A stretch of DNA of 64,000 nt from an uncultured Ignatzschineria sp. (GTDB lineage: Bacteria; Pseudomonadota; Gammaproteobacteria; Cardiobacteriales; Wohlfahrtiimonadaceae). Of the stretch, positions 3,947 to 6,393 are shown piece by piece. Under the pieces are notes generated by a model. That model was given only the letters and a program-made list of their open reading frames with translations, was not told the DNA's origin and searched no databases. The stretch spans positions 62,001 through 126,000 of the forward strand of contig CALZEE010000002.1 in assembly GCA_945639195.1 (NCBI GenBank), written 5' to 3'. The translations under genes and the position numbers were made by a program. How positions within the stretch are numbered: position 1 is the first letter of the stretch; each line of letters begins with the position of its first letter.

Positions 3947-4645
3947 TTAAAGGGATTGTTTTGAAAAGCGGTAACCTTCGCCTCGTACGGTTTGCAACAT
4001 TTTTTGATGATCGCTGGGTTCTAATATTTTGCGAAGACGACCAATAGTGACATCTACGGTTCGCTCATCAACGTAGCTATCAATTCCCCAAACGTGATCA
4101 AGCAGTTTATCGCGGCTATAAACACGATCAATATGGGTCATGAAGAAGGCAAGCAGCCTAAATTCAATGGCACTTAAGCTGATAGGCTGATTATGAATGG
4201 TGATGCGTTGGGCGTCGAGATCAAGCTCAATGCCGGCAACTTTGATAATCTCATTCTCCTCTTCCACATACTCTTCAATACGGCGAAGCAGGGAGTTCAC
4301 CCGAGAGAGAAGCTCTTTCATGGCAAAAGGTTTGGGAAGGTAATCATCTGCGCCTGAATCAAGCCCTTCGAGGCGATCTTCAAGCTCGGCCTTTGCACTC
4401 AGCATAATTACAGGGATATGGCGCTCTTTACGGCTTGATTTTAGTTCTTTTAAGAGATCAATGCCGGACTTTTTCGGGAGCATCCAATCTAAAAGAATTA
4501 GATCAATTTTACTGTTTGCCGCAATAATCTCTTTAGCCTCAAGTCCATCATAGGCTTGAATAACCTCAAAGCCTTGACCGGTGAGAAACAGTTCAATCAT
4601 TTCAGAGATCGGAGTCTCATCTTCCACAATGAGTATTTTCTTCAT
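3947..4645 (-). CDS. phoB: Phosphate regulon response regulator PhoB
   Basis: OmpR/PhoB-class response regulator, 232 residues. The receiver domain (1-120) has the acidic pocket E8/D9/E10, phospho-acceptor D53 in LLDWMLP, S83 and K105. The C-terminal winged helix carries the PhoB-diagnostic stretch around FFMTHIDRVYSRDKLLDHVWG and ends in TVRGEGYRF. It binds Pho boxes and recruits sigma70 polymerase. One such box precedes this gene (4706-4723), so it should be autoregulated. Downstream is phoR. Confidence 0.95.
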   Translation of the reverse strand: MKKILIVEDETPISEMIELFLTGQGFEVIQAYDGLEAKEIIAANSKIDLILLDWMLPKKSGIDLLKELKSSRKERHIPVIMLSAKAELEDRLEGLDSGADDYLPKPFAMKELLSRVNSLLRRIEEYVEEENEIIKVAGIELDLDAQRITIHNQPISLSAIEFRLLAFFMTHIDRVYSRDKLLDHVWGIDSYVDERTVDVTIGRLRKILEPSDHQKMLQTVRGEGYRFSKQSL

Positions 4646-4689: not shown

Positions 4690-4723
4690 AGTGTAGATGT
4701 CGATTATGACAATCTTGTAACAA
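4690..4723 (-). promoter_or_regulatory. Pho box and -10 of the phoB promoter
   Basis: On the minus strand, two 7-bp half-sites with the canonical 11-bp period (TTGTTAC, AAGA, TTGTCAT; 4723-4706) match the Pho box consensus CTGTCAT-N4-CTGTCAC. Exactly 10 bp further is TACACT (4695-4690) as -10. The layout is that of a PhoB-activated class II promoter, about 60 bp before phoB. Confidence 0.8.
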
Positions 4724-4743
4724 TTCTAAAGATGCCTAATAAT

Positions 4744-4777
4744 TTGTCACTTTCCTGTCATGAGGACAGCGTATCGT
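4744..4777 (+). promoter_or_regulatory. Second Pho box promoter, facing away from phoB
   Basis: On the plus strand TTGTCAC (4744-4750), TTTC, CTGTCAT (4755-4761) form a Pho box with correct spacing. TATCGT (4772-4777) sits exactly 10 bp downstream, the spacing of the -10 in PhoB-dependent promoters and in the phoB promoter opposite. It points into a region with no convincing gene. Confidence 0.7.
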
Positions 4778-4783
4778 GATCTG

Positions 4784-4988
4784 TTTCATTCAGCAATATT
4801 TTTTATACGCGCTATCATCGATGAACACAATGCCGGCATTTATGGCGGCATGAATATTACGGGAAGATCATGGTTGCGTTGTGAGACCTAAAGGGACTTC
4901 GGGGTTCTGGGCTCAGAGTTCTTAATAGTGATAGCAAGATTAAGAGAGAAATAGCAAGAAGGAGATCATAATGATCTCCTTCTTTTTT
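4784..4988 (+). ncRNA. Candidate PhoB-activated small RNA
   Basis: Predicted transcript of about 205 nt from the plus-strand Pho promoter to the T-run of the terminator at 4957-4988. No ORF of useful size lies inside; the only one starting with ATG (4821) codes about 10 residues and has no ribosome-binding site. The ends are predictions from promoter and terminator positions, not observed. I do not recognise an RNA family. Confidence 0.5.
4957..4988 (+). terminator. Strong plus-strand intrinsic terminator in the phoB-glmM gap
   Basis: Perfect 13-bp inverted repeat (4957-4969 with 4971-4983) followed by a T-run, strand-specific: the minus side lacks a T-run. Neither flanking gene is on the plus strand, so it implies a plus-strand transcript. 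Confidence 0.8.
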
Positions 4989-5073
4989 ATACTAGTTTTA
5001 AGCATAGTTTTATGCCTGTTTTAGATTGGCAAAAGCTTAATACATATCGGCTTCTTGGTCATGATGAAGTATG

Positions 5074-6393
5074 TTAAGCCGCTTCTGCACTAGCTCTGAT
5101 GATGTCCGCGAGTGCAATGGTATGCTTTTCGCAGGTATCAAAATCATGGCTCTCTACCATCACGCGCACAACAGGTTCTGTACCTGATGGACGAATCAGA
5201 ATACGTCCTTTGCCGGCAAGTGCTGTTTCGATCTCATCCATTGCTGTTTTGAGCGCAGGCGTATCCCACACAGTGTCTTTCGTAATACGTACGTTATGCA
5301 TGACTTGTACGGTTTTCGGAATCTCGTTTAAAATGGCGCCAAATGTCGCTCCAACGGTATTGAGCGTTTCTAATGTTTGAAGCGCAGCAATCATGCCATC
5401 CCCTGTTGAATGAGCATCTAGGCAAAGAATATGACCAGAGTTTTCGCCGCCAATGGTTAAGCCTTTTTCGTTAAGGAGTTCTAGAACATAACGATCTCCC
5501 ACTTTTGAGCGAAGGAGCTCGATGCCGCGCTCTTTTAGCGCTAATTCAAACCCAAGATTACTCATAATAGTGCCGACAACGGCTTTTTCTTTACGGGTGG
5601 TTGCAAGGAGATAGAGGATATCATCGCCATCAAATGGGCGGCCATTTTCATCAATAATCAACAATCTATCGCCATCACCATCAAATGCGATTCCGCAATC
5701 CGCTTTTTCCGCTTTGACACGTTCGATAATCGAGTTGGGTGCAGTAGAACCAACATTATCATTAATATTGCTGCCATTGGGCGCTGTGCCGACTTCGATC
5801 ACGGTAGCACCAAGGCGCTTAAAGAGTTTTGGCGCGACTTCATAAGTGGCACCATGTGCGCAATCGAGAACGATCTTTTTCCCCGATAGCGATAAATTTT
5901 TCACGCTATTAAAGCAGAAATCAATATATTCTTCTGCTGCGGTAGGAAGATGGGAGATCACCCCAATCGTACCATTCTCTAAGATCTCCATTGCCTCATC
6001 AATACCTTTCTCAATCGAAAGTTCTACAGCATCATCCAGCTTTTCGCCTTTGCCGTTAAAGAACTTAATCCCATTGTCATAAAAAGGATTGTGCGATGCA
6101 GAAACAACGATGCCGGCAACTAAACCATGCTTCATGGTTAAATGCGCAATGGCAGGGGTAGGGAGAACGCCAGCAAGAATGACATTCACGCCTGCATAAG
6201 TAAGACCTGCGGCAAGCGCCGCTTCAAACATATCGCCTGAAATACGGGTATCTTTCCCAATAAGTACGGTGGGATTAGGGCTTGAAGCAAGGGCTTTGCC
6301 TGCTGCGAAACCTAATTTAAGGGCAAATTCTGGGGTTAAGGGGAATGTTCCCACTTTGCCACGAATACCATCTGTACCGAAATATTTTCTCAT
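5074..6393 (-). CDS. glmM: Phosphoglucosamine mutase GlmM
   Basis: Converts glucosamine-6-phosphate to glucosamine-1-phosphate for UDP-GlcNAc, feeding peptidoglycan and LPS. At 439 residues it is normal length and starts with the family signature RKYFGTDGIRG. Active-site serine S100 lies in VSASHNPFYDNGIK, the Mg loop is DGDGDR (238-243), the sugar loop is GGENSGH, and the phosphate loop is RPSGTEP near the end. The start has an AAGGA ribosome-binding site. In enterobacteria it follows ftsH-folP; here it stands alone. Confidence 0.96.
   Translation of the reverse strand: MRKYFGTDGIRGKVGTFPLTPEFALKLGFAAGKALASSPNPTVLIGKDTRISGDMFEAALAAGLTYAGVNVILAGVLPTPAIAHLTMKHGLVAGIVVSASHNPFYDNGIKFFNGKGEKLDDAVELSIEKGIDEAMEILENGTIGVISHLPTAAEEYIDFCFNSVKNLSLSGKKIVLDCAHGATYEVAPKLFKRLGATVIEVGTAPNGSNINDNVGSTAPNSIIERVKAEKADCGIAFDGDGDRLLIIDENGRPFDGDDILYLLATTRKEKAVVGTIMSNLGFELALKERGIELLRSKVGDRYVLELLNEKGLTIGGENSGHILCLDAHSTGDGMIAALQTLETLNTVGATFGAILNEIPKTVQVMHNVRITKDTVWDTPALKTAMDEIETALAGKGRILIRPSGTEPVVRVMVESHDFDTCEKHTIALADIIRASAEAA

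Follow-up and report, generated by a model that had tools for sequence, protein, structure and literature searches.

Why should the control region of phoB carry a second Pho box that points away from the gene? phoB is the master gene of phosphate starvation and encodes PhoB, and in one Ignatzschineria genome (G000, 2.45 Mb) two such boxes lie back to back between glmM and phoB (positions 4690-4988 of the window, by which we mean the whole 64,000-nucleotide stretch of DNA that was analysed). A preliminary description of the locus assigned one box to phoB and proposed that the other drives a small RNA made on phosphate starvation. Profile matches place both flanking genes on the minus strand, as had been stated there, in the order glmM, intergenic region, phoB, phoR. 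The upstream neighbour glmM (5074..6393; TIGR01455, E=1.7e-163) reads toward the phosphate response regulator gene phoB (3947..4645; TIGR02154 PhoB, E=1.3e-87), which is followed by phoR (3718-2429, minus strand). The phoB match of 292.8 bits is slightly below the TIGR02154 cut-off of 296.2, and that of the adjoining PhoR is above its own. The phoB loci closest to this one come from Ignatzschineria. We compared the region across nine species of the genus, which correspond to six independent lineages.

The box nearest to phoB (TGTTACAAGATTGTCA, 4707..4722, minus strand) consists of two tandem half-sites 11 bp apart, with one mismatch to TGTCA-N6-TGTCA. It is followed by a T, 10 nt and the hexamer TACACT (4695-4690), so that both TGTCA-like half-sites at an 11-bp period and a -10 about 10 nt downstream, the marks of a Pho-box promoter, are present. 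The identical variant TGTTA-N6-TGTCA was found in all nine species, as was TAnAnT at exactly 10 nt, an arrangement that none of 5000 shuffles equalled. The assignment of this box to phoB, with its -10 exactly 10 nt away, is confirmed by these observations. The site would function as a classical activating Pho box and take the place of the phoB promoter's -35.

The second box (TGTCACTTTCCTGTCA, 4745..4760, plus strand) has perfect half-sites, with no mismatch to TGTCA-N6-TGTCA, and remains perfect in all nine species. Because this motif has only three occurrences in the entire 2.45 Mb genome (here, in the phoX promoter and in an IS-like transposase region), the plus-facing box is far beyond chance. 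The outward-facing pair that had been described is therefore present not only here but throughout the genus. The two boxes are separated by 22 bp (4723..4744) when counted between 16-mers, which equals the 20 bp reported earlier when counted between 18-mers.

The length of this gap is kept across the genus (22 bp in two species, 23 bp in seven), whereas its sequence is not, with an identity of 0.35 and no invariant column among the six lineages. Averaged over species pairs, identity is 0.84 and 0.77 in the two boxes and drops to 0.31 in the plus-side -10 and to a background value of 0.30 in the 90 bp that follow. The flanks vary in length, with 60-185 bp from box to phoB start and 224-867 bp from box to glmM stop. 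Since the gap length is fixed while neighbouring stretches are variable and downstream identity is at background, constraint, as read from these alignments, acts on both boxes and on their distance, and not on a transcript. In three species (G003, G006 and G005; loci L106-L108), a tract of G+C-rich repeat units, several hundred bases in all and located between the plus-facing box and glmM, seems to expand the glmM-phoB interval.

Could the outward box be left over from a divergent Pho-regulated gene that has since been lost, or simply be an inert PhoB site? Inert PhoB sites are numerous in E. coli (PMC10294691), and in another gammaproteobacterium a clear outward Pho-box pair (L167) sits between truly divergent genes. 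Yet neither kind of site would remain perfect across nine species as the sequence around it drifts to background, and no gene is found there in any species compared; we consider this explanation very improbable.

Downstream of the plus-facing box, a T and 10 nt lead to TATCGT (4772..4777), a possible -10 of a divergent promoter, at the exact distance that had been claimed for it in this genome. All of the Pho promoters examined in G000 place TAnnnT exactly 10 nt past the box (pstS, TATACT; pstB, TACACT; phoX, TAGGAT; phoB, TACACT), so that TATCGT fits the rule of its own genome, and a PhoB-dependent plus-strand transcript in G000 alone is plausible on account of this shared distance. The pstB site (L150, G000:C2:57050-57065) is a Pho box inside the pst operon, additional to the one at pstS. 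Because TAnnnT is found at 2.9% of positions in the local background (0.029 at any given position), the hexamer by itself is weak evidence. Among the nine species, only G000 has TAnnnT at 10 nt on the plus side; it stands at 9 nt in G004 and in G002/G007. Every species has the box, and no -10 is kept at promoter distance across the genus. The combined plus-side signal at 9-11 nt over the six lineages reaches a p of about 0.01 against shuffles, and two unrelated positions among 100 shifted windows score at least as high.

Between glmM and phoB there is a single terminator-like hairpin, at 4956-4984, 195 bp beyond the plus-facing box. It has 13 pairs and a loop of 3, and the perfect 13-bp stem and plus-strand T-run had been correctly described. 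Terminator features are present on both strands: the tails are TTTTATACTA on the plus strand and GCTATTTCTC on the minus strand, the T-run being stronger on the plus strand and the minus strand scoring too. The hairpin lies 89-118 nt past the glmM stop here, and 59-154 nt past it in the five other species where a comparable hairpin was located. G001, G004 and G008 carry the T-run on the minus strand, and G002/G007 show no clear one. According to a base-rate count in 324 kb of G000, hairpins tailed on both sides are frequent, and terminator polarity was therefore rejected as proof of a plus-strand transcript. Its position in the genus as a glmM terminator, together with the frequency of such two-way hairpins, indicates that the hairpin most likely belongs to glmM.

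Such a two-way glmM terminator would also end any divergent transcription from the outward box. PhoB-dependent transcription without function, yielding a short non-coding by-product in some species, is consistent with the marginal -10 signal across lineages and with the abundance of two-way hairpins in the genome. This explanation leaves the perfection of the plus-facing box at a fixed spacing in nine of nine species unaccounted for, and we regard it as possible but rather doubtful.

The preliminary description went further and proposed an RNA of about 205 nt (4784..4988, plus strand), activated by PhoB on phosphate starvation; in its full form this would be a trans-acting, species-specific small RNA. 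Its promoter box is real and kept in all nine species, the spacing of TATCGT matches that at phoB, pstS, pstB and phoX, and the stronger plus-strand T-run and an overall fold z-score of -4.15 would fit a structured transcript. When the hairpin is left out, however, the z-score is -1.30, and as the signal stems mostly from the hairpin, itself better explained as the terminator of glmM, the fold was rejected as small-RNA evidence. The body of the RNA stands at background identity and no homologue of it was detected in 39 relatives by a DNA search with the intergenic region as query; in the 40 genomes searched (these relatives and G000 itself), the matches besides its own locus were the box region in three species and one unrelated hairpin. 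An Rfam search of the window gave no match. The alignment of the interval in relatives, which had been suggested as a check, recovered both boxes in nine of nine species but not the RNA body, and the -10 and a plus-polarity terminator are missing in most of them. Of the two losses in close relatives that had been named as refuting the small RNA, that of the terminator applies to most and that of the box to none, and the earlier interpretation is supported in part. A conserved small RNA is accordingly not supported by the comparison, and a species-specific one seems unlikely to us. Our search turned up no Ignatzschineria transcriptome for phosphate-limited growth.

The proposed RNA has no usable reading frame, as had been noted: no plus-strand ORF of at least 40 aa begins inside it, and the only plus-strand frame nearby, of 43 codons, starts within the Pho box, upstream of the predicted transcript start. 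With no conserved plus-strand ORF, a small-peptide reading was rejected. An AAGGAG followed by ATG in the hairpin, read by eye, opens a 17-codon hydrophobic frame (MISFFFILVLSIVLCLF, window 4958-5025); as it arises from the palindrome, of which it is probably a by-product, we set it aside as noise. A different palindrome, TGCCGGCA, is present in 17 copies in the window versus 1.0 expected (for example at 511, 4231, 4831, 5211 and 6111), and one copy falls within the proposed RNA. This has the look of a short word over-represented in the genome, perhaps of the uptake type or another repeat word.

We favour, at a probability of roughly 0.55, the interpretation that this is the phoBR control region, with two predicted, outward-facing PhoB operator sites held at a fixed distance, of which the distal one tunes the autoregulation of phoB. 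The distal site, inverted and with the higher match, would be a second operator for PhoB-P, and this tuning would be its conserved role. It may do so by aiding or buffering occupancy at the activating box; alternatively, it may compete for RNA polymerase when PhoB-P is high. A weak divergent transcript may also arise from the distal box in G000 and end at the two-way hairpin, either as a by-product or as a young transcript. What the sequences establish is the sites, their spacing and conservation, and the genes around them; binding by PhoB, an effect on phoB and the direction of that effect are our inference. The operator interpretation agrees with the retention of the plus-facing box and the 22-23 bp gap in all nine species, and with a -10 that is kept for phoB and not on the plus side. 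The marginal plus-side -10 signal speaks against it, as a site acting on phoB only would not need one, and so do the L167 pair between divergent genes, the absence of the pair from the other family genera checked, and the want of a PhoB activation geometry known to us for such an inverted upstream site.

Additional PhoB sites were detected at the phoB region of several species. In G004 and G008 (L105, L104), a third, perfect plus-facing Pho box lies about 45 bp beyond the plus-facing one and has no TAnnnT at 10 nt, and in G002 and G007 (L109, L110) a plus-facing Pho-like site with one mismatch is found in the phoB leader, some 47-62 bp ahead of the phoB start. These examples indicate that extra PhoB sites in this region need no promoter. 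Family members from other genera are arranged differently: G009 and G012 carry tandem minus-facing half-sites, and in G011/G013 a distance of 2 bp separates the phoB box from a weak plus-facing site, which has TATAGC 10 nt beyond it. An array of several PhoB sites ahead of phoB seems common yet variable in the family, and the outward pair itself is absent from the other family genera checked. In a class-wide survey, the outward pattern was found in five of 369 genomes versus none in a reversed-pattern control; none of the four other genomes with the pair shows it at anything resembling a phoB locus.

The positive autoregulation of phoB serves as a model of the balance that two-component systems strike between speed and cost. 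A second PhoB site that nature has conserved in a fixed geometry would offer a clean comparative case outside the enterics, one that simple reporters could test. More tentatively, and with the odds clearly against it, we can imagine a genus-specific two-site operator in which the inverted, stronger upstream site, kept at a constant helical distance, determines the gain with which phoB regulates itself and in G000 also fires a PhoB-dependent non-coding RNA. The locus also teaches that a Pho box with a nearby terminator hairpin is insufficient for calling a PhoB-controlled small RNA.

To our knowledge, no PhoB activation geometry has an inverted site 38-39 bp upstream, measured centre to centre. 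Among small RNAs, the proposed transcript can be likened, by description and not by sequence, to EsrL, a phosphate-induced E. coli small RNA that Jia et al. 2023 (cited in PMC10294691) reportedly placed under PhoB; ChIP-seq in K-12 did not confirm its PhoB site (PMC10294691). The P. aeruginosa sRNA1060/1062 act on phoB yet are LasR-driven (PMC12506140), and were set aside as not comparable. In V. cholerae, a 2011 study, as far as it is cited in PMC6194859, describes activation and repression PhoB sites at phoBR, so that several upstream sites would likewise serve dual autoregulation. E. coli PhoB acts on its own gene in two ways, activating it from a Pho box and, at high concentration, repressing it through a weak opposite-strand site near the -10 (PMC6194859). 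Both promoters therefore have more than one PhoB site, one at the -35 position that activates and another on the opposite strand, and in principle the upstream site of Ignatzschineria resembles this autorepression site. The two differ in geometry: in E. coli the extra site is a weak one that overlaps the -10, a position at which we found no opposite-strand site with two or fewer mismatches in G000, whereas that of Ignatzschineria is the better match, lies upstream and faces outward. The leader site of G002/G007 comes nearer to the E. coli arrangement.
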